A stretch of DNA of 53,459 nt from Deltaproteobacteria bacterium (GTDB lineage Bacteria; Myxococcota; Myxococcia; Myxococcales; 40CM-4-68-19). Position numbers and translations under genes: made by a program. Under the pieces are notes generated by a model. That model had not been told where the DNA came from. It worked only from the letters and a program-made list of their open reading frames with translations, and ran no database searches. This document shows positions 5,067 through 45,649 of this stretch, piece after piece. The stretch lies in the NCBI GenBank assembly GCA_005879315.1, contig VBLC01000109.1, positions 1 to 53,459 on the forward strand, read 5' to 3'. The stretch's first letter is position 1. The number at the start of each line of letters is the position of its first letter.

Positions 5067-6065
5067 GTGGGTCCACCTCAAGCCGATCTGCGGGCAACGC
5101 CAGCGTCGATCATACCCACCGAGCAGATCGGCAGCATCCCAAGACCCGCCGATCTCATCGAGAGAATCGCAATCGCCGGCAGCGAGGATCCCGACCTCGC
5201 TCTTCTCTACGACATTGCCATTCGGGACACCATCGAGCGGCTCGAAGCGACAGGCTCTCCGGTCGTCACCGACGGCGAGCAGAGGAAGTATCACAATTTC
5301 GCGACGTACTGCGTGCATGGGCTTCGGAATACGGCCCCGGACGGTTTCAAAATCCCTTTCTCGGACGGTCACACGCGCCGCATGGCGCGGCTCACAGGCG
5401 GGCCGTTCCGTTACAGGTGTTACGCAGACGGTTTCCTGGATGTCGCCCTGCGCTATGCGCACGTGCCGGTCAAGCAGGCGGTGATCTCGCCTTCGTGCCT
5501 GAGCCTGATGTACCCATCCGAAAGGATTCCGGACTATTCGCGCGAGCAATTCATCGAGGATCTTCAGACGGATCCGGATGCTCTTCAAGAAGGGGACTCC
5601 GCAGCGGGAATTGGTCGATGTCAACAAGTCATTCGAGAGACGATTCCCCTCCTGCGCAGCGAGGCGACGCGATACTCGATCTCCGTCCGGACCGAGCTGG
5701 CGGCGAGCGTTCCCCGGATCCTGGGAGATCGCGTGCAATTGCAGCAGGTGCTGATGAACCTCTTGGTGAACAGCATCGAGGCGATGAAGGATATCGACGG
5801 GACCCGGGAGCTCGTCATCACCTCGCAGCGCGGAGAGAACGAGCAAGCCCTGGTGTCCATCAGCGACACCGGCGTGGGGATTCCTCAGCAGCACGCCGAC
5901 CAGATCTTCAATGCATTCTTCACCACCAAGCCTCACGGCACCGGCATGGGACTTCGCATCAGCTCCTCCATCGTCGAATCGCATGGCGGACGCTTGTGGG
6001 CAGCAGGCAACTCTCCGCGCGGCGCAACTTTTTGCTTCACCCTGCCCGCCGAAGCCGAGACATAG
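5067..6065 (+). pseudogene. Chimeric remnant: methionine-synthase-like head joined to histidine-kinase tail
   Basis: A single open frame contains parts of two unrelated genes. From about 5100 to 5563 it matches the start of the cobalamin-independent methionine synthase-like family (ILPTE-type 'IIPTEQIGSIPRP', 'ATGSPVVTDGEQRK', 'LTGGPFRYR', 'VKQAVISPS'), stopping well before the zinc-binding catalytic half. From about 5563 it matches a hybrid-type histidine kinase tail: 'RRIRMLFKKGTPQRELVDVN' is in another frame (5569-5628), and after an apparent one-base loss near 5625 the main frame resumes with 'VIRETIPLLRSEATRYS', the N-box 'QQVLMNLLVNSIEAMK', G1 'DTGVGIP' and G2 'GTGMGL'. The phospho-accepting His is missing. 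Both halves are therefore non-functional fragments; an expressed fusion cannot be fully excluded. Confidence 0.75.
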
Positions 6066-6069
6066 GTTG

Positions 6070-6615
6070 GTGATCACGCTGCTGACCATCCCGGGACTGT
6101 GGAGCAGTGGCCCCGACCACTGGCAGACGTACTGGGAGCGCGAGCGCAAGCACACCCGCCGCGTCGAGCAAGAGAACTGGGAGACGCCCAAGAGGGCCGA
6201 TTGGATCGAACGCATCCGGGCCGCCGTACGCAACGCGCCCGGGCCGGTGGTGCTGGCCGCGCACAGCCTCGGCTGCGCCGCGGTCGCCCATCTCGCAAGG
6301 CAAGCAACGCCCTCCGAGTTGGCGAGGATCAAGGGCGCGCTCCTGGTCGCGCCGAGCGACGTCGAGTCCCCGAAGTACCCGCCCGGGACTGACGGCTTCG
6401 TGCCCATGCCGCTCGAGCGGTTGCCGTTCAAGGCTGCGGTCGTGATCAGCAGCGACGACGAGTGGGTGACCCCGGAGCGCGCGCGGCAATTCGCCTCTGC
6501 CTGGGGAGCGCGCATCGTCGAGGTCGGCGCGAAAGGTCACCTGAACAGCGCGTCGAAGCTCGGATCGTGGCCCGAGGGCCAGGCGCTCTTGCGCGACTTG
6601 GGCCTCGATTCGTGA
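6070..6615 (+). CDS. RBBP9/YdeN-type alpha/beta serine hydrolase
   Basis: A 181-residue single-domain hydrolase. The N-terminal 'TIPGLWSSGPDHWQTYWE' motif is diagnostic of the RBBP9/YdeN family, as are the nucleophile elbow A64-H-S66-L-G, the acid in 'SSDDEWV' (D129 or D130) and the catalytic His in 'GHLN' (H157). These small cytosolic esterases have poorly defined substrates. GTG 6070 (or the TTG just before it, 6067) gives the family's normal length; the Shine-Dalgarno is weak. The TGA overlaps the GTG of the following HAD gene (GTGA), so the two form an operon. Confidence 0.88.
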   Translation: MITLLTIPGLWSSGPDHWQTYWERERKHTRRVEQENWETPKRADWIERIRAAVRNAPGPVVLAAHSLGCAAVAHLARQATPSELARIKGALLVAPSDVESPKYPPGTDGFVPMPLERLPFKAAVVISSDDEWVTPERARQFASAWGARIVEVGAKGHLNSASKLGSWPEGQALLRDLGLDS

Positions 6616-7319
6616 TTGACGCAGCGATCTTCGACCTGAACGGAACCCTGATCGACGACATGCGGGCGCACGGCCGCGCCTGGTCCACGATCGTTCGCGA
6701 GCTGGGAGTGGACGTGCCGGCCGAGCGGTTCGAGCGCGAGCTGGCAGGAATGAAGCACGGCGAGACCTTCGAGGCGGTGCTCGGGCGCAAGCTGCCGACT
6801 GCGGAGGTGGCGCGGCTGGCCGCCCACAAGGAAGCTCTCTACCGCGAATTGTACGCGCCGGATCTGCGCCTTCTGCCCGGCGCGCGGGAGTTGCTCGAGC
6901 GGCTGCGCGCAGAAGGCGTGCGCACTGCCATCGCCACCGCGGCGCCGCCGGAAAACCGCGACTTCGCGCTGGACGGGCTCGGCATCCGGCCGCTCTTCGA
7001 TGCGGTGGTGGGCGAGGAGGCCGCGGCGCGCGGCAAGCCGGCGCCGGATCTGTACCTCGCGGCTGCGCGCGCGCTTGGCGTCGCACCGGAGCGCAGCATC
7101 GCTTTCGAGGACGCGGTGAACGGAGTGCGCGCCGCACGGGCGGCCGGGATGCGCTCCGCGGCCGTGACCACCACCACCTCGGCCGACCGGCTGCGCGAAG
7201 CCGGGGCAGAGTTCGTCCTGCCCGATTTCGCGCACTTGCCGCCCGAGCTGGAGGTGCTGCTCTTCGCCGCGGGTCGGGTCGGACGATTGACCGACCCGAG
7301 CAAGGGATACGCAACCTGA
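6612..7319 (+). CDS. HAD-superfamily hydrolase (beta-phosphoglucomutase-like)
   Basis: A 235-residue HAD subfamily IA protein. Motif I is F7-D8-L-N10-G-T12, motif II the Thr in 'AIATAAPP', motif III the Lys of 'GKPAPDLYL', and motif IV 'AFEDAVNGVRAARAAGM'; an alpha-helical cap lies between motifs I and II. It most likely dephosphorylates or isomerises a sugar phosphate or similar metabolite. The second Asp of the usual DxD motif, the general acid/base, is Asn (N10), which may lower phosphatase activity or mark a special subgroup. GTG 6612 overlaps the upstream hydrolase stop. Confidence 0.9.
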   Translation: MIDAAIFDLNGTLIDDMRAHGRAWSTIVRELGVDVPAERFERELAGMKHGETFEAVLGRKLPTAEVARLAAHKEALYRELYAPDLRLLPGARELLERLRAEGVRTAIATAAPPENRDFALDGLGIRPLFDAVVGEEAAARGKPAPDLYLAAARALGVAPERSIAFEDAVNGVRAARAAGMRSAAVTTTTSADRLREAGAEFVLPDFAHLPPELEVLLFAAGRVGRLTDPSKGYAT

Positions 7320-7370
7320 CCGCTGCCGCTCCTTGTCGTCCGGTCGCTACGGTCGGCGCCGGAACATCGC

Positions 7371-27300: not shown

Positions 27301-27568
27301 GCTCTGGGAGATGTACCCGCACAGCGAGAACGGGTCCGCCGCGGGCGACGGCGACTGGGACAAGAACGGCGTGGTCGATTTCCGCGACCTGATCGCCGTC
27401 TCCTCGCGCTTGGGCAAGACGCAGGCGATGAACGACAACAACACCGCTGACGTCCCCGCTTTCTTCCAGGAGCCGCGCTACGACGCGGCCTCCGATACGA
27501 ACTCGGACGGGAACCTCGATGACACCGACCTCGGCGGCGTCATCGCGAAGTTCGGAGGCACGCCATGA
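24386..27568 (+). CDS. Secreted VPS10/sialidase-like beta-propeller protein with dockerin-like tail
   Basis: A 1060-residue exported protein. ATG 24386 follows GGAGG by 6 nt; the N-terminus is signal-like (RIIVRAVCALAAIAAVAPRA). From about 150 to 950 it has VPS10/BNR propeller repeats: 'SGGGLWKTTNF', 'LKSTDGGATWS', 'YRSVDGGATWAVI', 'FSSRDGGATWNKLG', 'FYRTTDGGNTWARYG'. The last 75 residues hold two EF-hand-like dockerin loops, 'DWDKNGVVDFRDLIAVSSRLG' near 987 and 'DTNSDGNLDDTDLGGVIAKFG' near 1036, as in type I dockerins that bind cohesins. The catalytic residues of true sialidases are not evident. It overlaps the next gene by 4 nt. Confidence 0.88.
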   Translation: MRRNSRIIVRAVCALAAIAAVAPRAVKAYDQWQETRRQAWMAQAKAAIESGQEQLPPVPLGVTLVDDVEGKPGQEMDDPQARELQQLLMFGSRTPEYQADILRTAVLEQQKATAIATALQTDRTVAPLAGIASSVVAANLGPAGARSEFNGSFYKAQDTGRIRAIRVHPADANTVYIATSGGGLWKTTNFHTASPQWAPLMDSLVGSIDLGAMDIDPSNPSTIYVGTGEHGDGLPGGAILKSTDGGATWSTPVQLTGTYTSGTSSVTATSTQVRSLAVDPNNSNIVVASGDRAFYRSVDGGATWAVINLPAPAAYNLSATFTQAILGAWDIVYLGTASGQSQWALSGVYGCPGFFAPVRFGSVANCTTVNSKGPTTGNLGDIWKSADSGVTWTSMRVNSKLPTQDPTWGITPDTTGLPDIGRTALGGASNVDPNLAAIYAEGASVDDNNSKTVILFSSRDGGATWNKLGTPKSTNLTNPTISTACTSLDIGHNQSWYNLAVGVDPGNPDRAMVGGNLCSARTVDGGATWQLTSHWLPSSGTSETSDGAGALPYVHADWHTITISRVGGRFVTLVGCDGGLHSSYSVFDITPTQLASWNQPDYGLITHLPYGHGTGDPVLGNARVFYAGFQDNGTRWRLSHTENVDLVTTLNWDQIVGGDGTGNAVATDVNGQNAVYWGGTPGARRFCRPTQSRDCGVATHITDGTEFSNWIRALNPNLPSGDSEPFTLRFSPTYDSASSVISASTFNVFKISVDSNDAFSYTRLTPAGLPGGRNTQLQAVYASPWPYQINGTPTRVYGVVVTGGRFVTLADTGVGTPTLSLSATQMQFNGTTVTGSSSMAFPRVPEDFGAPTGTAVTNTYLGATVNPTPAAMGKLFKTIDNGAHWIPVHGNGTPAPGGGTLDLPNIPVYVVRVDYSDPTEKTWYVGTELGFYRTTDGGNTWARYGSVPAARIIDATVSLNGSLIRLSAYGRGLWEMYPHSENGSAAGDGDWDKNGVVDFRDLIAVSSRLGKTQAMNDNNTADVPAFFQEPRYDAASDTNSDGNLDDTDLGGVIAKFGGTP

Positions 27569-30500
27569 ACCGCACCGCGAACCTCGCGATCGCAGCGCTC
27601 GCGCTCTTGGCTGCGTGCTCGGGCAAGGAGTCTACGCACGTCGACCTGTTCCAGGCCTCGCCAGCGACCATCCAGGCGGGCGAGTCGACGACGCTGTTGT
27701 TCGCCACCAGCAACGCCAAGTCGATGACCATCGACAACGGAGTCGGCGATGTGACCGGTAAGTCGTCGATCGTCGTCACGCCCGCAATGACGACTGCCTA
27801 CACTCTGACGGCGGTCTCCAAGGACAACAAGGCCGACACGTCGTCGGTGACGGTGACCGTCGTGCCGGCGCGAGCATCGGCGTTTCTCGTCGAGCTGCCG
27901 GCGACGGCGATCGCGGGCCAGGCTGTGACGGTGACCGTGACGGCGTTGCGCGCCGACGACACGGCGCTCGACGCATTCGTCGGCTCGGCCACGCTATCGA
28001 CGGACGACGTCCAGGCCACCTTGCCAGCGTCAGTGGTCTTTGCAGCCGGCGCGCACGGCAAGGCCACTGCGCAGGTCACTTTCAAGACGGCCGGCGCCCA
28101 CCAGATCGGCGCGGGCAATGCGGCGAATTCGGCAGCCCGCGGAGGTGCCAGCGTCACCGTCAAGAACGCTGCGGCGTCCAAGCTCACGCTGTCGGGGCTG
28201 CCGGCCAATGTGCGCGCTGGCGATACCGTCAGCGTGCGCGTGGCGGCGCTAGACGCGTTCGGGAACTTCGCCGTCGACTATCGCGGCACGGTCGCCCTAT
28301 CGACGAACGACGCATCGGCGACGCTTCCTGCGGCGGCGGCACTCGGCGCCGCCGATGCGGGCGTGCGGAGCTTTGGCATTTCATTCGCCACCTCGGGCGC
28401 CGCTACGCTGGCCGCCAGTGACGGCGCGCTAAGCGCCAGCGCCACGGCCACTGTGCGCAACGCGCCAGCGAGCCGCATCGCGGTCGGCCTGACCGCAGAC
28501 AGCGTCACCGCCGGCGACAATCTGTCGATCGCCGTGATGATGCTCGACCGCTTCGACAACGGGGCCGTCGATTACATGGGCACGGTCCACCTGCTCTCCA
28601 GCGACGCCGCCGCGCCGACATTCGCCGACGTCGCTTTCGGCGCTACAGATCAAGGCAGCAAGTCCATCTCGGTGACGCTCGTCACCGAGGGAACGCAGGT
28701 CATCCTCGCGCAGGACGCGGCTTCGCCGGCTTTGACCGGCGCCAACTCGGTCCGCGTCAAGCACGGCGTCGCGATCAAGTACGCTCTCTCGGCGCTGCCC
28801 GGCGCGGCCGCGGCGGGCGATCCGCTCCCGCTGACGATCACCGCGCTCGATGCGCACAACAACGTGGTCACGGACTACGCCGGGACGGCGCATGTTTCTT
28901 CGGCCGACACGACGGATCGTCTGCCGGCCGACGGCAGCTTTTCGGGCGGCGTGCGCACCGTATCGCTCGCGTTCGTCAAGGCCGCCTCGCACTTCGTCTC
29001 GGTGAACGAAGTGGGCGGCTCGATCACGGCGACCTCGACCACCACTGCCGTCGGCCCGGCAGCCGCCAGCGTCCTCCAGATCACGGGGCCAGGCTCGGCC
29101 ACGTCCGGCGCAACCGCGACGTGGCAGGTCAGCGCCTTCGATCCATACGGCAACCTGGCCACGGGATATCGCGGAACCGTTCATATTTCGAGCGACGACG
29201 GCGCGGCGTTACTGCCTGCCGACTTTGCGTTCGGGTCAGCGACGTCAGGAACGAAGCAGTTCTCCGCCACGATGGCGACGGCGGGGGCGCACACGCTGAG
29301 TGTCGCCGACACCGCGTCCTCATCGATACGCGGCGGGCTGATCGTGCAGGTCTCGCCAGGAGCCGCCGCGAGCTACCAGCTTTCATCGTTGCCGGCGACC
29401 ACGACTGCGGGCTCGCCCATCGCGGTGACCGTCACGGCGCGCGATGCGCACGGGAACGTCGCCACCGGTGAGACTTCCAGCGCGCACTTCTCGACTGGCG
29501 AGGCAACGGACGTGCTCCCGGCCGACCCGGCGTTCTCTGCCGGCGTCCTCTCGGTCTCCGTCTCGCTGCTCAAGGCGGGCACGCGCGCGCTGACCGTCTC
29601 ACAGGTCGGCGGCTCGCTGCAGGCGGTATCCGCGAACGTGCAGGTGAACCCAGCCGCGGCGGCGTCACTCGCGCTGGGAGGAGCGGGAGCAAGCACTGCC
29701 GGAGACGCAGTGTCGTTCACGGCCACCGCCCACGACGCGTATGGCAACCAGGCCACCGGCTACGCAGCGATAGTGCACGTCACGAGCAGCGATGGGCAGG
29801 CCGTTACGCCGGCGGACTTCGCAGCCGCCGTGGGTGCCGCAAATTTCCAGGTGACGTTCAAGACCACAGGCCTGCAGACGGTCCAGATCGGCGACGGCAG
29901 CATTTCGACATCCAGTTCCGTCACCGTCTCGGCGGCAGCCGCCGTATCCCTGGCGGTCTCGGATGTCCCCGCGTCAGCGAACGCCGGCGACTCGCTGCCC
30001 GCCAACGTCACTGCCAAGGATCTCTACGGCAACGTCGCGCCGACGTATGCCGGTACCGTCTCGTTCACGACCGACGGCGACGGCAAGGCCGCTCTGCCCG
30101 CCAGCTACGCATTCACGCCGGGCGATGGCGGTCGGCACACATTCAGCTTCGCGCTCGGCACCACCGGCACCTGGAAGCTCGGCGTATCGGACGGGCACTT
30201 CAGCGCCACCAGCGCAGGCACGTTGGTTTCGCCCGGCGTGGTCGACCGCTTCGTCATCGCAAGTCTTCCTTTGTCGGCACATGCCGGTGATGCACTCTCC
30301 GCCATCATCACCGCCAAGGACCGCTTCGGGAACACCACGACCAGCTACGCAGGCACCCTGCACAGCGTGCTCACGGATACCGCCGCCCCGGTGGTGAGCG
30401 ACAAGCAGGCCTCGGCCGGGTCGGCGACCATTTCCTTCACCTTGGTGACGGTGGGCAAGCAATCGATCATCGTCTCCGACGCCGCATTTTCGTCGCTGAG

Positions 30501-32241
30501 CAGCTCGAGCGAGCTCGAGGTGACGCCTGCTGCGGCGACCCGTTATCAGCTTGCGACGTTGCCGGCGATGGCCGTCGCCGGACAGCCTCTGACGCTGGCG
30601 GCGCTCGCGCTCGATGACTTCGGCAACGTCGACACGAGCTACGCGGCGCTCGCGCACGTGGCGGGGAGCACCGGGGACGAGTTATCCCCAGACAGCGCCT
30701 TCAGCGCCGGCCGGCTCTCGGTGGGCGTCTCGTTCACCAAGATTGGCTCGCACAAGGTCACGCTCAGCGAAGTGAACGGCACCATCTCGAAAGACTCGAG
30801 CTTCGTCTCGGTGACCTCCGACGATGCCGTCGCACTGTCGGTTGCGCCGAACGCGGCCACCGCAGTAGCAGGCGCAGGCGCTGACTTCACGGTCACAGCA
30901 CGCGATCGTTTCGACAACCAGGTCGCTACTTACGCGGGGCAAGTCGACTTCACCTCCAACGACGCGCAGTTCGTCTCGCCCGGGCCGCACACTTTCAATT
31001 CGGGCGACGCCGGCTCGCACGCGTTCACGGCCACTTTCAAGACGGCGGGCGTGGCACGGGTCGATGTGCGCGACACCTCGGCCACCTCGATCTCGGGCGG
31101 CGCGGCTTGGACGGTCGTGCCGGGCGCGGCGGTGTCCTGCGCGGTCGACCAGACGCCCACCGCGGCGGCACCCGTCACGCAGATCACCTTCCGGGTGACG
31201 ATCAGCGACGCATTCGCGAACAAGGCTACCAATTACCAGGGAACCATCGGCGTTGCTTCCAGCGACGGAGGAGCGCAGTTCGCGAGCAGCAGCGTCACGT
31301 ACGATCCATCGGTAGACCGGGGCTCGCACATCTTCACGGTGTCCTTCGGCGCGAACGGCCTGAAGCAGCTGACGGCGACGGACAGCGCCAACTCGACGCT
31401 CACCTGCTCGCAGCAAGTGATGGTCGAGCCCCTGGTGCACTACGTGGTGGCGCTGCCTGCCGACGCGAATGTCGGCGTGCCGACCAGCATCACCATCACC
31501 GTGCAGGACGCGACCAACCAGATCATCACGAACTACGCCCAGACGGTGGTGCTCACCTCGAGCGACAACGGTGTGACTCCGCCGGGTCCCGTGGCGTTCG
31601 ACGGCTCGCAAAACGGCACGACCACCGTACAGGTGACCTTCGCCAGCCTTGGCGTACAGACAGTGGTCGCGACACAACAAAACAATTCCGTCATCACCGG
31701 CAGCGGCGCGACGAACGTGCACGGCCTGGTCTATAGCGACCCGCCCGCTGGACTGGGCGTGGTGCGGTTGATCGCCAATCGCGGCGTGACCACGCCCGGG
31801 CTCGTACAGCTCGACCTGGTCGCGGCGCAAGGAGTGCCGATCGGCTATGGCGTGGGCATGAACCTGCCGGCGAGCACGTCGCGCGTGCTTCCCGACGATA
31901 CGATGCTCGTGACAGGCAACGTCTTCGACCCAGGCGACGGCACGCGCGAGACGCGCGCAGTCGCCGCATCGCTCACAATGCTGGGTCCGACGGCGAATGT
32001 CCTCTATACCGGCCTCAGCTCGAAGAACGCGGGCGTGCGGCCGGTGGTCCGGGACGTCAAGATCGCTGCGGGCGGCCTTTTCTACTCCATCCGCCTCAAG
32101 CTGAATCCGGCCGCGCAGCCGGGTGTGGTGTTCGACGGTGCAATCGCAATGGCGAACTTCCGCGCGGCCGTGCGCGACCGGCTTGGCAACGACACGGTGG
32201 CGCAGTCCGACTTCGCGGTCGGAAGGCTCGAAGTCCGCTGA
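27565..32241 (+). CDS. Giant Ig-like repeat lipoprotein (1558 residues)
   Basis: The lipobox 'LLAACSGK' (C18) anchors it to the envelope. An N-terminal Ig-like domain ('ASPATIQAGESTTLLFATSN') is followed by about 13 tandem repeats of roughly 95-100 residues. Each opens with a 'LP..A.AGD.....VTA.DAFGN....Y.GTV..SS' pattern and ends with '...AG.....V.D......' strands; the repeats resemble Big_1/filamin-type adhesion modules. The C-terminal 180 residues, from 'YSDPPAGLGVVRLIANRGV', are different in kind and unassigned. ATG 27565 overlaps the upstream TGA (ATGA), so it is coexpressed with the dockerin-tailed propeller protein. It is a likely surface stalk or scaffold. Confidence 0.88.
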   Translation: MNRTANLAIAALALLAACSGKESTHVDLFQASPATIQAGESTTLLFATSNAKSMTIDNGVGDVTGKSSIVVTPAMTTAYTLTAVSKDNKADTSSVTVTVVPARASAFLVELPATAIAGQAVTVTVTALRADDTALDAFVGSATLSTDDVQATLPASVVFAAGAHGKATAQVTFKTAGAHQIGAGNAANSAARGGASVTVKNAAASKLTLSGLPANVRAGDTVSVRVAALDAFGNFAVDYRGTVALSTNDASATLPAAAALGAADAGVRSFGISFATSGAATLAASDGALSASATATVRNAPASRIAVGLTADSVTAGDNLSIAVMMLDRFDNGAVDYMGTVHLLSSDAAAPTFADVAFGATDQGSKSISVTLVTEGTQVILAQDAASPALTGANSVRVKHGVAIKYALSALPGAAAAGDPLPLTITALDAHNNVVTDYAGTAHVSSADTTDRLPADGSFSGGVRTVSLAFVKAASHFVSVNEVGGSITATSTTTAVGPAAASVLQITGPGSATSGATATWQVSAFDPYGNLATGYRGTVHISSDDGAALLPADFAFGSATSGTKQFSATMATAGAHTLSVADTASSSIRGGLIVQVSPGAAASYQLSSLPATTTAGSPIAVTVTARDAHGNVATGETSSAHFSTGEATDVLPADPAFSAGVLSVSVSLLKAGTRALTVSQVGGSLQAVSANVQVNPAAAASLALGGAGASTAGDAVSFTATAHDAYGNQATGYAAIVHVTSSDGQAVTPADFAAAVGAANFQVTFKTTGLQTVQIGDGSISTSSSVTVSAAAAVSLAVSDVPASANAGDSLPANVTAKDLYGNVAPTYAGTVSFTTDGDGKAALPASYAFTPGDGGRHTFSFALGTTGTWKLGVSDGHFSATSAGTLVSPGVVDRFVIASLPLSAHAGDALSAIITAKDRFGNTTTSYAGTLHSVLTDTAAPVVSDKQASAGSATISFTLVTVGKQSIIVSDAAFSSLSSSSELEVTPAAATRYQLATLPAMAVAGQPLTLAALALDDFGNVDTSYAALAHVAGSTGDELSPDSAFSAGRLSVGVSFTKIGSHKVTLSEVNGTISKDSSFVSVTSDDAVALSVAPNAATAVAGAGADFTVTARDRFDNQVATYAGQVDFTSNDAQFVSPGPHTFNSGDAGSHAFTATFKTAGVARVDVRDTSATSISGGAAWTVVPGAAVSCAVDQTPTAAAPVTQITFRVTISDAFANKATNYQGTIGVASSDGGAQFASSSVTYDPSVDRGSHIFTVSFGANGLKQLTATDSANSTLTCSQQVMVEPLVHYVVALPADANVGVPTSITITVQDATNQIITNYAQTVVLTSSDNGVTPPGPVAFDGSQNGTTTVQVTFASLGVQTVVATQQNNSVITGSGATNVHGLVYSDPPAGLGVVRLIANRGVTTPGLVQLDLVAAQGVPIGYGVGMNLPASTSRVLPDDTMLVTGNVFDPGDGTRETRAVAASLTMLGPTANVLYTGLSSKNAGVRPVVRDVKIAAGGLFYSIRLKLNPAAQPGVVFDGAIAMANFRAAVRDRLGNDTVAQSDFAVGRLEVR

Positions 32242-32641: not shown

Positions 32642-35188
32642 TCATGGACGCGTGCCTCCACCGGGAGACGACCGTCCCGCGCTGCGCGAGGCGGCGGCAT
32701 TGCGGACGAGGATCGCTGCGACGCTGCCGCCCAGGAGGACCATTCCCACCACGCCGAGCAGCGTGCTCCACGAGAGGACCCGGGGGATCGGGCTGAGCCC
32801 GTCACCGGTGAGGATGAACGCGGCCCAGTAGCGCGGGTGCCGCAGCGCCGTCCCGGAGCGCAGAAAGCGCAGCTTGGCAAGGCGCAGCGCCTCTGCCTTT
32901 GGCTTCCCACGGTTCAGATCGAAGTACAGTTGCGCCATGAAGTCACGCGCAGGCTCGTCCGCCACGCGCCAGAGTGTGGTCACCGCGGCGCGCGCCCCGG
33001 CGGACAGGAGCGCGCGGCTGAACGCGTACGCGCCCTCGCCGCGAACGAGCTTGCCGCGCTCGGTCTCGCAGGCGGAAAGGGTGGCGAGGTCGACCCCGCG
33101 CAAGTCGAGGTCGTAGACTTCCTTGAGGAACAGATAGTCCGCCCCGTCCTGCTCGCGGTCCGGCGAAAAGAGGATCCTCGATCGTTCGGCGCTGGCCATA
33201 TCGGCGACGGCATGGGTCGCAAGGTGCAGCAGCGGCACGCCGGTCGCAGCGCCCTCCACCAGGTGTCTCTTCAGATTCTCGTTCCCGAGGAACAGCTGGG
33301 CGCGGCCGGGGCAGGTGCGCGCAATGGCGCGGGCCTCCTCGGCCGAGGCGGGAAGCGGGTTGCTCAGCTCCGCGCCGCCGAGCTCCATCGCCGCGCTGTG
33401 CGACGCCGGCTGGATCCGCGGGGCGGCGAATGAGACCAGCTGGCGCTTCCAGGGCGGTGCCCAGAAACGCGAGCGGTCGGAGGAATCACGCAACAGGACC
33501 GCTGCCGAGGGTAGGTAGGAGACATCGAACCGCTCGATGATCGGTGAGCCTGTGCCGGCGTCCAGCAGCTCGAAGGGAATTTCGCCCAGGGCTCCGTCGG
33601 GAACGACGATCAGATGGGTGGCGTCGGGCCGCCCGAGCGCCGGGATTCCGCCGAGCAGCCGGGCTCCAATCGTGGCCGCCGGCCGCTTCCACCCGTCGGT
33701 CGTGCCCGCCGATGCCTCGTTCAACAGGGAGGAGATCTCCCCGAGAGTCGGACCGACGGCGGGGAGCGAGGCGATGCCGGCCGCTTCCCGCGTCGCCCAG
33801 AGCACCGCCGCGCTGCGCGGCCCTACCCAGTATTCGAGAAGGACGGTTCCCGCCTCGAGCCGCGCCTGCACCGCGGCGAGCGTCGGCTGCGCCACCGCCA
33901 GGCGATCCTGGAACATCCGCGCCCGCGCTCGTTCCAGCACTTCGAAAAACGCCGCCGCGTCTGGCCGCTCCAGGAGGATCTCGAGCAGCGCATCGTAGAC
34001 GTCGCGTTTGTCCGCAAGGAAATCCGTCTTGAGCGAGGCGAGCTGGAGCTGCGCCCGGACCGATTCGATCGCGGAGAGCGCGTCGCGAAAATGCGTGGAG
34101 GCCATCTCGTCGCGGTGGGCGGAGCGCGCCAGCCGGCCCAGTCCGTACAGCGCCTTCCATTGCTCCTCCGTGGTTCCGAGCTGCCGAGCCGTTGCGAGCG
34201 CCGCCTCGAAGTTGCGCGTGGCTCCACCCGCGTCGCCCTGCCTGTAGAGACTTTCGCCGCGATAGAGATGAGCCAGAATCGCCTCCCTGCGGTCGCCGCT
34301 CTGTTCAGCGAGCGCGAGCGCGTCGGTAAAGGCCGCGACCGCGACGGGGAGGTCGCCCAGGTCGAGTGCCTGGACGATGCCGATGTTCGTGAGCACGCGG
34401 ATCCGCGCCTGCTTGTGTTCGTTGCCGGCCAGCAGCCTCTGGGCGACCCGGTACGTCTCGAGCGCTTTGATCGGGTCGCCGAGGCTCTGGTACAGATCAC
34501 CGAGGTTGGAGAGCAGCCGCGCCTGCTCGTTCGGTGTCAGCGCTTCCGGCGCGTTGCGCAGCTCCCCATAGAGCTGGATCGCCTGATCCTCGTGCCCGAC
34601 CCGCTGGAAGAGGGCTGCCAGATTCGTGAGCGTGATGCGCCGCAGCCGCATGCTCCACGGCGCGGCTCCCGCCTGCCCGGCGCTGTCGAGCGCTTCGCGA
34701 TACGCCCGCAGCGCGTCGAGGTAACGGGCCTGGTGGAAATGGATGCTCCCCACGTTGTTCAGCACCGCGACCTCGCGCTCCCGATCGCCGATGGTCCGGG
34801 CGAGCGCAAGCGCTGTGTCCAGCTGATGGAGTGCGGACGCGTAATGCGCCTGGTAGATCTCTGCCACGCCGAGGAGTTGGATTGCGTGCGCCTCGCCGCC
34901 CTTGTCTCCGAGCGCACGATGAACGTCGGCCGCTTCGCGAGCCCTTGCGGCGGCGGAGTCGTATTGTCCCTGCGACGAGGCGATCTGGCTCAGCGCATTG
35001 AGAGCCGCGCCGAGCGCGGCCGGATCGGAGGACCGCAGTTCCGGAAGCAGGGCTTCATAGGCCTTCTGCGCTTCGCGAAGCGCGCCCCTCTGCTGCAGCG
35101 CCCGCGCCTCGGCGAGCGCCGGCGGCGCGCCGCGCGCCGCGCCCGTCAGCAAGGAGATCAAGCCCAGACTGATCGCGCAGAGTCGCAC
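32642..35188 (-). CDS. Exported, membrane-anchored TPR-CHAT protease
   Basis: An 848-residue protein. GTG 35188 starts a signal peptide (MRLCAISLGLISLLTGAARG). Residues about 25-400 are TPR repeats ('YDSAAARAREAADVHRALGD', 'YLDALRAYREALDSAG', 'PIKALETYRVAQRLLAGN'). The C-terminal CHAT domain, a caspase/separase-like Cys protease, has catalytic H659 in 'LHLATHAVAD' and C707 in 'LSACETERGK', preceded by 'VVPDGALGEIPFELL'. A hydrophobic helix at about 806-829 and a basic tail would anchor it with the protease in the periplasm. It ends an operon of ECF sigma factor, anti-sigma factor and secreted protein; the gap to the preceding gene is 9 nt. The target is unknown. Confidence 0.9.
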   Translation of the reverse strand: MRLCAISLGLISLLTGAARGAPPALAEARALQQRGALREAQKAYEALLPELRSSDPAALGAALNALSQIASSQGQYDSAAARAREAADVHRALGDKGGEAHAIQLLGVAEIYQAHYASALHQLDTALALARTIGDREREVAVLNNVGSIHFHQARYLDALRAYREALDSAGQAGAAPWSMRLRRITLTNLAALFQRVGHEDQAIQLYGELRNAPEALTPNEQARLLSNLGDLYQSLGDPIKALETYRVAQRLLAGNEHKQARIRVLTNIGIVQALDLGDLPVAVAAFTDALALAEQSGDRREAILAHLYRGESLYRQGDAGGATRNFEAALATARQLGTTEEQWKALYGLGRLARSAHRDEMASTHFRDALSAIESVRAQLQLASLKTDFLADKRDVYDALLEILLERPDAAAFFEVLERARARMFQDRLAVAQPTLAAVQARLEAGTVLLEYWVGPRSAAVLWATREAAGIASLPAVGPTLGEISSLLNEASAGTTDGWKRPAATIGARLLGGIPALGRPDATHLIVVPDGALGEIPFELLDAGTGSPIIERFDVSYLPSAAVLLRDSSDRSRFWAPPWKRQLVSFAAPRIQPASHSAAMELGGAELSNPLPASAEEARAIARTCPGRAQLFLGNENLKRHLVEGAATGVPLLHLATHAVADMASAERSRILFSPDREQDGADYLFLKEVYDLDLRGVDLATLSACETERGKLVRGEGAYAFSRALLSAGARAAVTTLWRVADEPARDFMAQLYFDLNRGKPKAEALRLAKLRFLRSGTALRHPRYWAAFILTGDGLSPIPRVLSWSTLLGVVGMVLLGGSVAAILVRNAAASRSAGRSSPGGGTRP

Positions 35189-35197
35189 CGGCGCGAA

Positions 35198-36124
35198 TCA
35201 TCGCGCCGGCGCCTGCCATACGTCCAGCGCTCCGGAACAGGCGAGCGCGGGCAGGACCGGCATGACCGAACCATCGTTCTCGTTTCCGCTCAGTCCCAGC
35301 ATCTGGACTGCGACGGTGGCCGTCAGCCGGAAAAAACTTCCGGCGCTGGGAATGACGCCAGGAAAGAGCTCCGAGACTTCGCGGGAGACCCTGGTCAGCG
35401 GGGGCAGCGCCAGCAAAGCGGACGCGACCACCAAGCCTGTGTCCCACAGCTCGACCAACACGATCGATTCGACCGGCTCTGGATTCTGCAGGGCGAGCCC
35501 GAAGAATGTTCCGCTCGTTGGCGCCGCAACCAGAGCACGCGATTGCTTCGCGACTGGAAAGGTCACCTCGGTGGCGGCGAGCAGCGGCCTCGCACTCTTG
35601 CCGAGGTCGGTGGTGGGCAGGTACGGCGAGTCGCTGGCGCCAGTGCCTTCGGGGTTGCTGACATCCAGCGCACAGGGGGCCCCGAATGGAGCCAGGGACG
35701 CCGACGCTGCTGGATCAGGCGTCAGGCTGGCCGTCGTTCCTGCTGGAGCCTGATCGGGAACGGCGATGGTCACCGCGATCATCGGGGCGGAAGACAGTCC
35801 CAGCGTGGCGGGGGGCGAGACCGTGCTGACGACCAGTGAGTTGCCGGAGATCGCGGCGGTGCCCGCTGCGTCCGGCGCACCCGACAGCGTCACCTGCTGG
35901 ACCGCGCCGAGATCTGCTCCAACGCCGAAGGACTGCAGGTCGATGATGATCGGCGTGGGGTCGTTGGGGTCGAAAGGCAGCTGGCACTGGATCGATATCC
36001 CGGTCCCAGCCGCATCGAGCACCTGCAGACAAATGCTGTCGGCAAGTGCGATCGACGGCAGCGTCAGGGCAAAGACCGCCGCGACCAAACAATCACGCAA
36101 CCGACACATCCCGATGCTGCTCAT
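35198..36124 (-). CDS. Secreted protein of the CHAT/ECF operon, unknown function
   Basis: A 308-residue exported protein. ATG 36124 follows a purine-rich GGGGGG stretch and starts a signal peptide ending 'PSIALA'. The N-terminal half is beta-rich with a cohesin-like rhythm ('QQVTLSGAPDAAGTAAISGN', 'MIAVTIAVPDQAPAGTTASL'), and the second half resembles a repeat of 'SGTFFGLALQNPEPVESIVL' type found in secreted proteins of Acidobacteria and Myxococcota. No catalytic motif. It lies between the anti-sigma and TPR-CHAT genes and could be the CHAT substrate or a signal-binding partner (inference). Confidence 0.75.
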   Translation of the reverse strand: MSSIGMCRLRDCLVAAVFALTLPSIALADSICLQVLDAAGTGISIQCQLPFDPNDPTPIIIDLQSFGVGADLGAVQQVTLSGAPDAAGTAAISGNSLVVSTVSPPATLGLSSAPMIAVTIAVPDQAPAGTTASLTPDPAASASLAPFGAPCALDVSNPEGTGASDSPYLPTTDLGKSARPLLAATEVTFPVAKQSRALVAAPTSGTFFGLALQNPEPVESIVLVELWDTGLVVASALLALPPLTRVSREVSELFPGVIPSAGSFFRLTATVAVQMLGLSGNENDGSVMPVLPALACSGALDVWQAPAR

Positions 36125-36146
36125 CTTCCCCCCCTTGATCCTCTGG

Positions 36147-36899
36147 CTACTTCCTGAGCCTGAACCGCTGTTTCCCGGACCACGCGACCGCCCTGCCGGC
36201 CGCATCTTTCGCGACCACCTCCCAGAGGATCGGCTTGCCGGGAACGATCCGCGCCCGGAGTGCCGGAGGCAGGGCGATGCTCGCGTCGCGGGTCTCGGCG
36301 TTCCACAGCTCGGCGAAATCGGCTTCCATCACCTGGACCGAATACGACGCGGCGTCGGTCCGCGGCGCCCAGCGCAGCTCGTTGGGCTGCGCGTCCAGGT
36401 CTCCGGCAGGAGAGAGGGGCGTGATCCCGGCCGACCGCAAGACTGCAGACGCGGTCGCCGAGGGCTGCGCCAGCTCCGGTGCGCGGCCTTCCCGCAGCCC
36501 GATGGTCACGGCCGCGGACAGCGTCGCGGCCGCCAGGGCGAATCCACCCACGTTCAGGGCCGTGAACCAGGAACGCCTCGGCAGCGCCGCCCCGCGGTCG
36601 GTCCGCGACGGTGAAGGTCCTGCGCTCGCCTCCGAGAACCGGCGCTCCAGGCGCGCCGAAATCCAGCTCACTGCGCCCTCCTCGTCGGGCCCCGGAGCGG
36701 CGTTCTCGAACTCCTTCAAGAGCGTCAGTTCGGTCTGGCAGCGCGCGCAGCCCGAGACGTGATCGCTCAGGCGCGTAGCCGCGGGTTGTGCGAGCGACCC
36801 GTCGGCCAGGCCGCCCAGCTCGAGCGGAGTGGCACACGCGCAGGAAGGCGACAGGGCCTTCCTTAGCAACGAGCGTTCCCTGGATCTCGCTTGCGCCAT
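36147..36899 (-). CDS. Zinc-finger anti-sigma factor with periplasmic domain
   Basis: A 250-residue single-pass protein. The N-terminus has the ZAS-type motif H47-x-x-x-C51-x-x-C54 ('SDHVSGCARCQTEL') that binds ECF sigma factors. One membrane helix lies at about 111-135 ('WFTALNVGGFALAAATLSAA'). The periplasmic part from about 150 carries an Fn3-like region ('NELRWAPRTDAASYSVQVME', 'ILWEVVAKDAAGRAV'). ATG 36899 has GGAG about 9 nt upstream. It directly follows the sigma-factor gene and precedes the secreted protein and CHAT protease, so it presumably inhibits that sigma factor until cleaved or bound. Confidence 0.85.
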   Translation of the reverse strand: MAQARSRERSLLRKALSPSCACATPLELGGLADGSLAQPAATRLSDHVSGCARCQTELTLLKEFENAAPGPDEEGAVSWISARLERRFSEASAGPSPSRTDRGAALPRRSWFTALNVGGFALAAATLSAAVTIGLREGRAPELAQPSATASAVLRSAGITPLSPAGDLDAQPNELRWAPRTDAASYSVQVMEADFAELWNAETRDASIALPPALRARIVPGKPILWEVVAKDAAGRAVAWSGKQRFRLRK

Positions 36900-36916
36900 G
36901 CTCTGATCTCCCGGTC

Positions 36917-37531
36917 CTACGCGATCAGTCTTTCGCTCGCTCGCCATCGGCTCAGGACGCGGGCCAGCTTGCGCCTCGCGCTGACGAGATACGCCTTCGC
37001 GCCGCTGGGGTTCTCGAGCCCGAGCAAGCGGGTGATGGTCAGCAGCGGCACGTCGTCGCCGTAGTGCAGTATGAAGACGCGCTTTTCCGTATCGGTGAGC
37101 TCGCGATCCAGCAGAGCGCGGGCGGCCAGGACGGAGGAATGCAATTCGAAAACGTGTTCCGGCCGCGACTCCGGATCGTCGGGCAGCGCCTCTGCGACGT
37201 CGTCGTCCAGCGCATCGTCGAGCAGACAGCGCGATTTCAGATAATTCAGGCATTCGCTTCTCGTGATCGAATAAAGCCACGTGGACACTTTCGAATCTCC
37301 GCGAAAGGCCCCGAGATGGCGCTGCGCCTTCACGAACACTCCCTGCGCGAGGTCATAGGCTTCCTCGCGGTCACCGGCGACCCGCAGGCACCAGGTCACC
37401 ACCTTCGTGTAGTGCCGGCGGAAGAGCTCCTGCAGCCAGATGCTCGCCCCACTGCCACCTGCAGCGAGGTGATTTGACACCAGATCCGCATCGGACAGCG
37501 CTTCCAGATCTCCTCCAACAAGATGAGACAA
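36917..37531 (-). CDS. ECF-type RNA polymerase sigma factor
   Basis: A 204-residue group 4 sigma factor. Region 2 runs from 'ASIWLQELFRRHYTKVVTWC' through 'EEAYDLAQGVFVKAQRHLGA' to 'VSTWLYSITRSECLNYLKSR'; region 4 is 'LTDTEKRVFILHYGDDVPLL' with the HTH 'TITRLLGLENPSGAKAYLVS'. The start is uncertain: TTG 37531 gives a full region 2, but the best Shine-Dalgarno (GGAGGAG) falls inside the frame, so a downstream CTG may be used. It heads an operon with the anti-sigma factor, secreted protein and TPR-CHAT protease, typical of a dedicated envelope-sensing module. Confidence 0.87.
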   Translation of the reverse strand: MSHLVGGDLEALSDADLVSNHLAAGGSGASIWLQELFRRHYTKVVTWCLRVAGDREEAYDLAQGVFVKAQRHLGAFRGDSKVSTWLYSITRSECLNYLKSRCLLDDALDDDVAEALPDDPESRPEHVFELHSSVLAARALLDRELTDTEKRVFILHYGDDVPLLTITRLLGLENPSGAKAYLVSARRKLARVLSRWRASERLIA

Positions 37532-38000
37532 TCAGCGGGGCAGGCGTGGAACAACTCTGTTGTCCGCGGATCGCCAGCCGCCCACAGTCGACTCCTAGTT
37601 GAGACGGCTGTCCATCTACGACCAAGGTCAGATAGGCGGAACGCCTGCCGGACGATTGCTGTTCCGCGCAGCGCACTGCGGTTGTCGAACCGGTACGTGC
37701 GCAAGGGCAAGGCGTGATCGAGGAGGACACGCGAGTGAAGATCGCCGCCTACGACCGCTGTGGCCTGTCCCCCTGAGAACGTCAGCGGCACAAATTGTCG
37801 ATGGCGCGTGCGATGCGTGTCCGAGGACGTCCGCGACTCGGGCGCAGCCGTGAAGCAGGCCGGGGCGCGAGAGTCCCCCCACTCGTGCCCCGGCCTGCTT
37901 CCGGAGCGTCCCTCCCGGAAGTCCCTTTTATCAGTTCCCGGCTTTCTCACTACGGGGCGTCGACGTCGTTTCGAAGGCGCTCGGGAAACAGCATGTAGCC
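37532..38000. other. Intergenic stretch between divergent ECF and PilZ genes
   Basis: This 469-nt region should hold promoters for both operons. No -35/-10 pair is convincing. It contains a strong orphan hairpin (37852-37901). Short open frames in it lack ribosome-binding sites. Confidence 0.4.
37852..37901 (+). terminator. Strong 15-bp orphan hairpin followed by a U-rich patch
   Basis: GAAGCAGGCCGGGGC (37852-37866) pairs perfectly with GCCCCGGCCTGCTTC (37887-37901) around a 20-nt loop. CCCTTTTATC follows about 20 nt later on the plus strand. Both flanking genes point away from it, so it does not end either of them. It could terminate an unannotated short RNA or be a stable leader structure of the PilZ mRNA. 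Confidence 0.5.
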
Positions 38001-39024: not shown

Positions 39025-39489
39025 TCACACGTCGATCTGAACCATCTGACTCAGCCGAGCGGGATTGCGCAAAGCCCGGAGTCGCTCGATTGTGTCGGAC
39101 CTATGGTCCGCCTTCTCCATGACGATTCCTGCCAGGATGCCGAAAGCGGCCCGATCAATGTGCGAGACGCCGCGCTCCCATCGAGAGACAGTCTCCGGCG
39201 ACGTGTCGAGCAATTCAGCCAAGGTTACCGCCGGCAGGCCAACTGCCTTCCGCATGAACTTGATGGCTTCACCTTCGGATACTCCTGCGCGAGCAAGCTT
39301 GTTAGCCACGGCGAGATCAAAGTTCCCGAGCGCAGGTCCGTTGAAGTAGACGGCACCACAAGAGTCACATACGAACGCTGGGATAGAGGCCTTGAAGCTA
39401 TGTCCTGCGACGGTGCGCGTCGCTGTACGCTTCTTCTCGTGTAGACCTGCGTTGCCGCATCGGGAGCACTTGCGCTTCACGCTCTTCAT
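39025..39489 (-). CDS. MqsA-type zinc-finger HTH antitoxin
   Basis: A 154-residue antitoxin. The N-terminal zinc domain has two CxxC pairs (C8/C11 and C41/C44, 'KCSRCGNAG' and 'FVCDSCGAVYF'), and the C-terminal HTH is 'VGLPAVTLAELLDTSPETVSRWERGVSHIDRAAFGIL'. It matches the MqsA/YgiT family, which neutralises a cotranscribed RNase toxin and represses the operon. ATG 39489 overlaps the TGA of what was the toxin frame (ATGA), which supports this start. The upstream toxin is frameshifted. A 20-codon remnant of a paralogue lies at 20591-20650. Confidence 0.87.
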   Translation of the reverse strand: MKSVKRKCSRCGNAGLHEKKRTATRTVAGHSFKASIPAFVCDSCGAVYFNGPALGNFDLAVANKLARAGVSEGEAIKFMRKAVGLPAVTLAELLDTSPETVSRWERGVSHIDRAAFGILAGIVMEKADHRSDTIERLRALRNPARLSQMVQIDV

Positions 39490-45125: not shown

Positions 45126-45347
45126 TCAGGAGCTCGACGGCCGCCATTCGAGCCGAAGCTGTTTACGCCGTGCCGCGCAGTCGCGGAGATACATGTTGAT
45201 AAGCGTCTGGTAGGGAAGCGCGGCTTCATCGGCCAGCCTCTTGAAGTAGGCGAGCGTATCGCTGTCCAGCCGAATCGTGACCTGCTTCTTCAGCCGCCTC
45301 GCGTGTGGGTTCTTCTCCGAACGGGAAAAGTCGTATTCCTTCCTCAT
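45126..45347 (-). CDS. brnA: BrnA-family antitoxin
   Basis: A 73-residue ribbon-helix-helix antitoxin: 'MRKEYDFSRSEKNPHARRLK' is the typical BrnA opening, then 'KQVTIRLDSDTLAYFKRLAD' and 'LPYQTLINMYLRDCA' form the RHH DNA-binding domain. ATG 45347 is chosen because it overlaps the TGA of brnT (ATGA); a longer start at 45359 lacks this. It neutralises BrnT and represses the operon as a complex. Confidence 0.88.
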   Translation of the reverse strand: MRKEYDFSRSEKNPHARRLKKQVTIRLDSDTLAYFKRLADEAALPYQTLINMYLRDCAARRKQLRLEWRPSSS

Positions 45348-45649
45348 CGCTTCCACCATTGCGCGTAGGTCGCGCGTTCTTTGCGGGTCGCCTTCCGAGC
45401 CGAGATGATCCGAATGATGTCCTCGCCGGTACGGTAGCAGTGACAGACGACGAGCATGCGAAGCGCGGAACTGAAGCCCAGCAGCACGAAGCGATCCTCG
45501 TCGTCCGAGTGATCGGGGTCATGCATGATCCGGCCATGTTCGTCCAGAAAGGCCGTCCGGGCTTCATCGAAGGAGACGCCATGTCTCTGCCGGTTCGCCC
45601 GGTCCTTGGCGGGGTCCCATTCGAACCGGAGCTCGTTCGCCACAACCAC
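45344..45649 (-). CDS. brnT: BrnT-family ribonuclease toxin
   Basis: A 101-residue RelE-fold toxin: 'FEWDPAKDRANRQRHGVSFD', 'EARTAFLDEHGRIMHDPDHS', 'ED IIRIISARKATRKER'-type C-terminus and a final 'YAQWWKR'. These are the landmarks of BrnT, which cleaves mRNA and halts growth under stress. Frame and motifs are intact, unlike the other toxin in this window. The start is GTG 45649 or the GTG two codons on. A short dyad, CTAC-ATC-GTAG (45657-45667), just upstream may be the BrnA operator. It precedes and overlaps brnA. Confidence 0.88.
   Translation of the reverse strand: MVVANELRFEWDPAKDRANRQRHGVSFDEARTAFLDEHGRIMHDPDHSDDEDRFVLLGFSSALRMLVVCHCYRTGEDIIRIISARKATRKERATYAQWWKR

Follow-up and report, generated by a model that had tools for sequence, protein, structure and literature searches.

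A four-gene set joining an ECF sigma factor and its putative zinc-finger anti-sigma factor to an exported TPR-CHAT protein recurs in Myxococcota and Acidobacteriota

The 53,459-nt contig VBLC01000109.1 (assembly GCA_005879315.1), referred to here in its entirety as the window, comes from a soil myxobacterium, a Deltaproteobacteria bacterium placed in the order Myxococcales of Myxococcota. At positions 32642-37531 of its minus strand lies a set of four genes for an extracytoplasmic function (ECF) sigma factor (36917..37498), a zinc-finger transmembrane anti-sigma factor of 250 residues (36147..36899), an exported protein of 308 residues (35198..36124) and an exported, tail-anchored TPR-CHAT protein of 848 residues (32642..35188), the last beginning 9 nt behind the exported-protein gene. 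Four linked minus-strand genes had been described here in an earlier note made from the sequence alone; all of them proved to be real, with a correction to the start codon of the sigma factor. The TPR-CHAT protein is the only CHAT protein of the 4.43-Mb genome, which is 97.6% complete. The gene set recurs across two phyla, and the CHAT protein may be the protease that sets the sigma factor free.

The CHAT domain (PF12770) scores 195.8 bits against a cut-off of 24 (E=1.4e-57) and occupies residues 441-797 (32798..33868, minus strand, as for all features of the set). It follows a TPR superhelix at residues 23-380 (34049..35122; TPR_12, 2e-24), modelled as high-confidence helices. The N-terminus is hydrophobic at residues 3-15, and a transmembrane segment at residues 810-828 (32705..32761; Kyte-Doolittle 2.51) precedes a basic tail. 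This anchor is present in the core homologues, most of which combine a hydrophobic N-terminus or signal peptide with a transmembrane segment and basic residues after the CHAT domain. The C-terminal anchor and the catalytic pair named in the earlier note, H659 (33212-33214) and C707 (33068-33070), were both confirmed. Counted over intact CHATs, that is, leaving aside a broken copy in genome G008, the aligned His/Cys pair is present in all 21 core CHATs, in 43 broader acidobacterial CHATs (plus one read in two pieces), in seven other myxococcal CHATs (plus four in two pieces) and in all 20 CHATs resembling DdvA, a protein discussed below. Loss of these residues in orthologues, which the earlier note had named as a result that would refute its proposal, was seen in no intact CHAT checked.

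The presumed inhibitor carries the ligand pattern of class I (zinc) transmembrane anti-sigma factors. Its ligands C22/H47/C51/C54 (Cys...His-x3-Cys-x2-Cys) are invariant in 10 homologues, and the Pfam zf-HC2 profile stays below threshold in the window protein (17 vs 22.2 bits). Beyond a transmembrane segment at about residues 115-135 lies an Ig/Fn3-like extracytoplasmic domain, or exodomain (36150..36437), with W/Y/P residues that are invariant in the same 10 homologues, among which the domain has a weak match to Ig_Rha78A_N. From the signal peptide and the transmembrane segments, the CHAT protein and this exodomain are predicted to share one compartment, as had been proposed. The juxtamembrane Arg155 in the linker, which falls within the span given for the exodomain, was considered as a CHAT-specific cleavage site and rejected, being invariant in 23/23 core proteins and equally in 13/13 relatives with no adjacent CHAT. 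Such relatives are found in loci L104-L114, L117 and L120, where a related ECF/anti-sigma pair has the same kind of exodomain and no CHAT nearby; judged by eye, these pairs mostly lie beside uvrA, DNA polymerase III delta'-like and ftsK-like genes in small acidobacterial genomes.

The exported protein of the window has a signal peptide and no Pfam match. The AlphaFold model of its homologue in locus L034 (pLDDT 82.7) consists of an N-terminal cohesin fold, a TIG domain and a C-terminal beta domain, and it matches cohesins with a TM-score of 0.75-0.79 depending on the target. The TIG domain scores below threshold in the homologues. According to the alignment, the window copy keeps the cohesin-fold and beta domains and has lost most of the central TIG domain that its orthologue in G003 retains. 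A cellulosome-type cohesin-dockerin partnership was rejected, since no dockerin (PF00404) was found in eight genomes carrying the system.

The sigma factor is recognized by Sigma70_r2 (Pfam, E=5e-15) in an open reading frame that reaches up to TTG 37531. The motif TGTTCC-N17/18-GTC(T/C)(T/C)A stands directly 5' of the sigma gene in 14 core loci, with near matches in G005 and G008; it has 19 matches in 418 kb of core loci, where 1.2 are expected, and three in 1.02 Mb of non-core loci. In the window it takes the form TGTTCC-N18-GTCTCA (37524..37553), a predicted sigma-dependent autoregulatory promoter and the only exact site in the genome. Since TTG 37531 falls within the -10 element of this promoter (37553-37524), it would not be the start of the sigma gene if the promoter is correct. 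Translation most likely begins downstream, at the predicted start CTG 37498, which is preceded by GGAGGAG and corresponds to an ATG in the G005 orthologue. Genome G061 has five sites, four of them in the neighbourhood of the module, before the sigma gene and three exported-protein genes, and in L100 a further exported-protein gene (5623-7359) has the motif upstream. Exported-protein genes behind a sigma-type motif, in L034 (3397-3879, 11356-12681 and 12685-14343) as well as in L100, constitute a candidate local regulon.

The earlier note had allowed that the neighbourhood might be limited to close relatives. Instead, the set is widespread in Acidobacteriota and recurs in a single family of Myxococcota. 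Within the genus, the CHATs of G003, G004 and G005 are 83-94% identical to that of the window, the CHAT of G008, from the same family, is 51% identical, and a scan of genome contigs revealed full-length acidobacterial homologues at 38-47%. Neither CHAT nor a strong anti-sigma match was found in G006 or in the congener G001, which is 96% complete. The layout is not constant. CHAT lies on the same strand as the sigma, anti-sigma and exported-protein genes in the window, G003, G005 and G008; it is convergent in L034, L036, L039, L041 and L097, divergent in L037/L096, L038 and L099, and on a separate contig in G060 (L033/L093) and G075 (L170/L100). Because orientation varies, we rejected the possibility that the linkage is a mere operon artefact. 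In the acidobacterial loci L157, L164 and L165, a single ECF/zinc anti-sigma pair is enclosed by two CHAT genes that point in opposite directions, and L164 and L165 also carry a multi-transmembrane protein of about 460 residues.

Linkage extends beyond the core. An ECF gene, or a gene with a zinc motif plus a transmembrane segment, lies within 3.5 kb of 17/22 next-best and 13/22 lower-ranked acidobacterial CHATs; combined, this is 30/44 CHAT genes vs 4/34 size-matched control genes taken elsewhere in mostly the same genomes (Fisher P=6e-7), the counts being approximate since zinc fingers were recognized by a motif rule. Of 347 sampled Acidobacteriota, eight encode a core anti-sigma factor that scores strongly (E below 1e-28), and each of these eight is among the roughly 10 genomes that encode a core CHAT (hypergeometric P 9e-15, with thresholds set by eye). 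The anti-sigma factor is present in only four of 195 Myxococcota genomes, all of them in the family of the window. Distances also rise together: Mantel correlations, computed without species-tree control and including two genomes with CHAT on another contig, are 0.84 for CHAT and sigma, 0.76 for CHAT and anti-sigma and 0.78 for sigma and anti-sigma, values reached in 0 of 2000 permutations. In the favoured model, the adjacent and co-diverging anti-sigma factor would hold the ECF sigma factor. In the CHAT tree, Myxococcota form one clade drawn within the acidobacterial branches (96/96; midpoint root), which points to a transfer out of Acidobacteriota.

A comparable pair, DdvS/DdvA of Myxococcus xanthus, is reportedly the subject of two papers (Bernal-Bernal, 2018 NAR and 2024 Sci Adv). 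Searching the anti-sigma profile against the PDB, we retrieved DdvA (8rlz) and a 991-residue 'CHAT domain-containing protein' (8rot, 8rw5) sharing its zinc finger, entries that Foldseek labels as transmembrane anti-sigma factor DdvA. With the AlphaFold model of the window CHAT as a query, Foldseek again places DdvA (8rw5/8rot) first at 3.4e-12, ahead of Csx29 (2e-9) and then separase, a match to be read with care as the model (mean pLDDT 71) is confident in the TPR part only. Since phmmer with the CHAT domain alone finds no CHAT structure in the PDB, the links to DdvA and Csx29 rest on the fold, and for DdvA also on the zinc-finger profile. Judged by this model, the closest solved protein is DdvA, and the window holds a split version of its architecture; a published structure thus already sets a precedent for linking a CHAT outside the cytoplasm with an ECF anti-sigma factor. 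Both systems combine an ECF sigma factor, a zinc finger, a transmembrane segment and a TPR-CHAT behind it with His and Cys kept (THG and LAAC in DdvA), the extracytoplasmic position in the window being predicted from the signal peptide and transmembrane segment. They differ in that DdvA is one chain, whereas the window has the zinc finger and CHAT on two separate genes, a tail-anchored CHAT, an anti-sigma factor with its own Ig/Fn3-like exodomain and the additional cohesin-fold protein. In 20/20 DdvA-like loci of Myxococcaceae, CHAT is part of the anti-sigma chain, and 15 of them have a predicted ECF gene immediately upstream. Several such zinc finger-CHAT single-chain candidates occur per Myxococcaceae genome (L232-L251), most with an overlapping upstream ECF gene. 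DdvS controls an island of CBASS (cyclic oligonucleotide-based antiphage signalling system) and type III-B CRISPR, according to PMC12288465, whereas the genome of the window has its one exact promoter site before the sigma gene and no RAMP gene, and no link to such an island was seen (CBASS was not searched for). The activating signal of DdvA was unknown as of a 2015 paper (PMC4374960).

The earlier note had presented the set as a CRISPR-free counterpart of Craspase. As a functional analogy this stands, for in type III-E Craspase, with Csx29 (TPR-CHAT), Csx30 and CASP-sigma, cleavage of a sigma factor inhibitor is established (PMC10028731), and both systems link a TPR-CHAT protease to an ECF sigma factor and an inhibitor; as the closest relative, Csx29 gives way to DdvA. 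Target RNA activates Csx29, which is soluble and works in partnership with Cas7-11, whereas the window CHAT is exported and anchored, with neither a Cas7-11/gRAMP partner nor a cytosolic TPR-CHAT in the window, and the presumed sigma inhibitor, unlike that of Craspase, is a transmembrane zinc-finger protein. No match to RAMP (Cas7-like; PF03787) was found in the genome, which is consistent with 'CRISPR-free' and led us to reject type III-E membership. With RseA/DegS/RseP the set shares a transmembrane anti-sigma factor with an exodomain and the presence of the site-2 protease family (PF02163, best E 4e-65, weak evidence as the family is near-universal), whereas the proposed site-1 protease would be a cysteine CHAT protease rather than a PDZ serine protease. 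Metacaspase and EACC2-caspase genes also occur beside sigma factors, including in myxobacteria (PMC3501461, PMC8195603); these are other families (Peptidase C14 for metacaspases), and the passages on them describe no exported TPR-CHAT or anti-sigma exodomain. In mostly non-subscription literature, we found no paper describing an ECF sigma factor and zinc anti-sigma factor with a separate exported TPR-CHAT.

Two rearrangements are informative about how the parts belong together. In G008 (L046 = G008:C201, 7673-10135), the anti-sigma factor and the exported protein share one continuous reading frame, and none of the frames in the stretch between them encodes a signal peptide. In G313 (L115 = G313:C431, 6769-8829), a response-regulator receiver domain (PF00072, 3.4e-19) substitutes for the zinc domain of an anti-sigma homologue, and the transmembrane segment, exodomain, exported protein and CHAT are all retained beside it. 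Both cases fit the view that exodomain, exported protein and CHAT form a sensory cassette separable from the cytoplasmic output.

Taken together, these observations lead us to a split transmembrane system in which the exported CHAT protein would be the regulated trigger that cuts the anti-sigma exodomain, an account to which we give an even chance of being right. The ECF sigma factor would be held by the zinc-finger anti-sigma factor, whose Ig/Fn3-like exodomain would lie outside the cytoplasm together with the tail-anchored TPR-CHAT. CHAT might be activated by a cue from the envelope or from outside the cell, probably sensed through the TPR superhelix and/or delivered by the cohesin-fold exported protein. 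It would then cut the exodomain near the membrane, and an RseP-type site-2 protease might complete the release. The freed sigma factor would transcribe its own operon and, where visible, genes for neighbouring exported proteins. This account draws on the gene set and its topology signals, the linkage of CHAT to sigma and anti-sigma genes in several gene orders, their co-divergence and co-occurrence, the joint absence from G001, the His/Cys pair intact in all four CHAT groups, the motif upstream of sigma, the DdvA-like single chains, the G008 fusion, the G313 swap and the presence of the site-2 family. Several points weigh on the other side. The core CHATs of L033, L035 and L170 have no linked anti-sigma factor, and Arg155, as conserved without a neighbouring CHAT as with one, is no mark of a CHAT site. 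The CHAT of G008, in the same genome as the fusion, is broken (His region lost, frame shift; an assembly error is possible). Finally, sigma and CHAT probably share a transcript in the window, an arrangement that suits an output role too.

CHAT might instead act as a signal-binding extracytoplasmic scaffold or co-inhibitor of the exodomain, with a conformational switch in place of proteolysis and DdvA as the same device in one chain. The closest solved fold, DdvA, is indeed a dimeric transmembrane anti-sigma factor, TPR superhelices bind ligands and the core genes are co-inherited, but the strictly conserved His and Cys of both split and fused forms are hard to explain without catalysis, and we find this doubtful. 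Alternatively, sigma and anti-sigma factors might sense stress on their own, with sigma driving the expression of CHAT as a protease for execution or for remodelling the envelope. Effector roles are common among caspase-fold proteases, and CHAT lies 3' of the sigma, anti-sigma and exported-protein genes on the same strand in the window, G003 and G005. However, no promoter motif was found upstream of the CHATs outside the sigma operon, whether convergent, divergent or unlinked (L033, L035, L036, L039, L041, L098, L099), although the sigma gene and other exported-protein genes have it; L097 is ambiguous, with a weaker site before the gene upstream of CHAT on the same strand. A motif that stands before sigma and generally not before these CHATs makes CHAT look like a signal-side component rather than an output, which we hold with moderate confidence from the motif distribution. 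Since DdvA, moreover, carries CHAT inside the anti-sigma factor itself, an output role seems improbable. That CHAT cuts the exported cohesin-fold protein, the product serving as exodomain ligand, is very unlikely: this protein accompanies the majority of core sets and forms a fusion with the exodomain in G008, but L098, L101, L102, L116 and L121 have CHAT and anti-sigma factor with no recognizable exported protein.

Convergent with the CHAT gene, the window encodes a predicted lipoprotein of 1558 residues with many Ig/filamin-like repeats (27565-32241), a possible surface partner; no sigma motif was found before its gene. Genes for an MqsA/YgiT-like antitoxin (39025-39489) and a BrnT-like toxin (45344-45649) were assigned by eye, and PADLOC returned a generic TPR match only.

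To our knowledge, no site-1 protease or signal is known for most transmembrane anti-sigma factors. In many Acidobacteriota and in myxobacteria, conserved linkage, co-divergence and fused single-chain relatives connect ECF anti-sigma factors with a caspase relative that apparently lies on the outer face of the membrane. The recurrence of the four genes together in two phyla suggests that genes are activated by this extracytoplasmic protein, probably through cleavage of the inhibitor. In a more general form, which we put forward with somewhat less than even confidence, extracytoplasmic CHATs might be widespread site-1 proteases that free ECF sigma factors by cutting exodomains, in split and single-chain versions, as a portable cassette that also drives a receiver in one relative and has a cytosolic, CRISPR-linked parallel in Craspase. 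If CHAT does cut the anti-sigma factor, it would represent a new class of site-1 protease and would suggest a mechanism for DdvA, and Craspase would belong to a wider CHAT-sigma theme as one of its branches.

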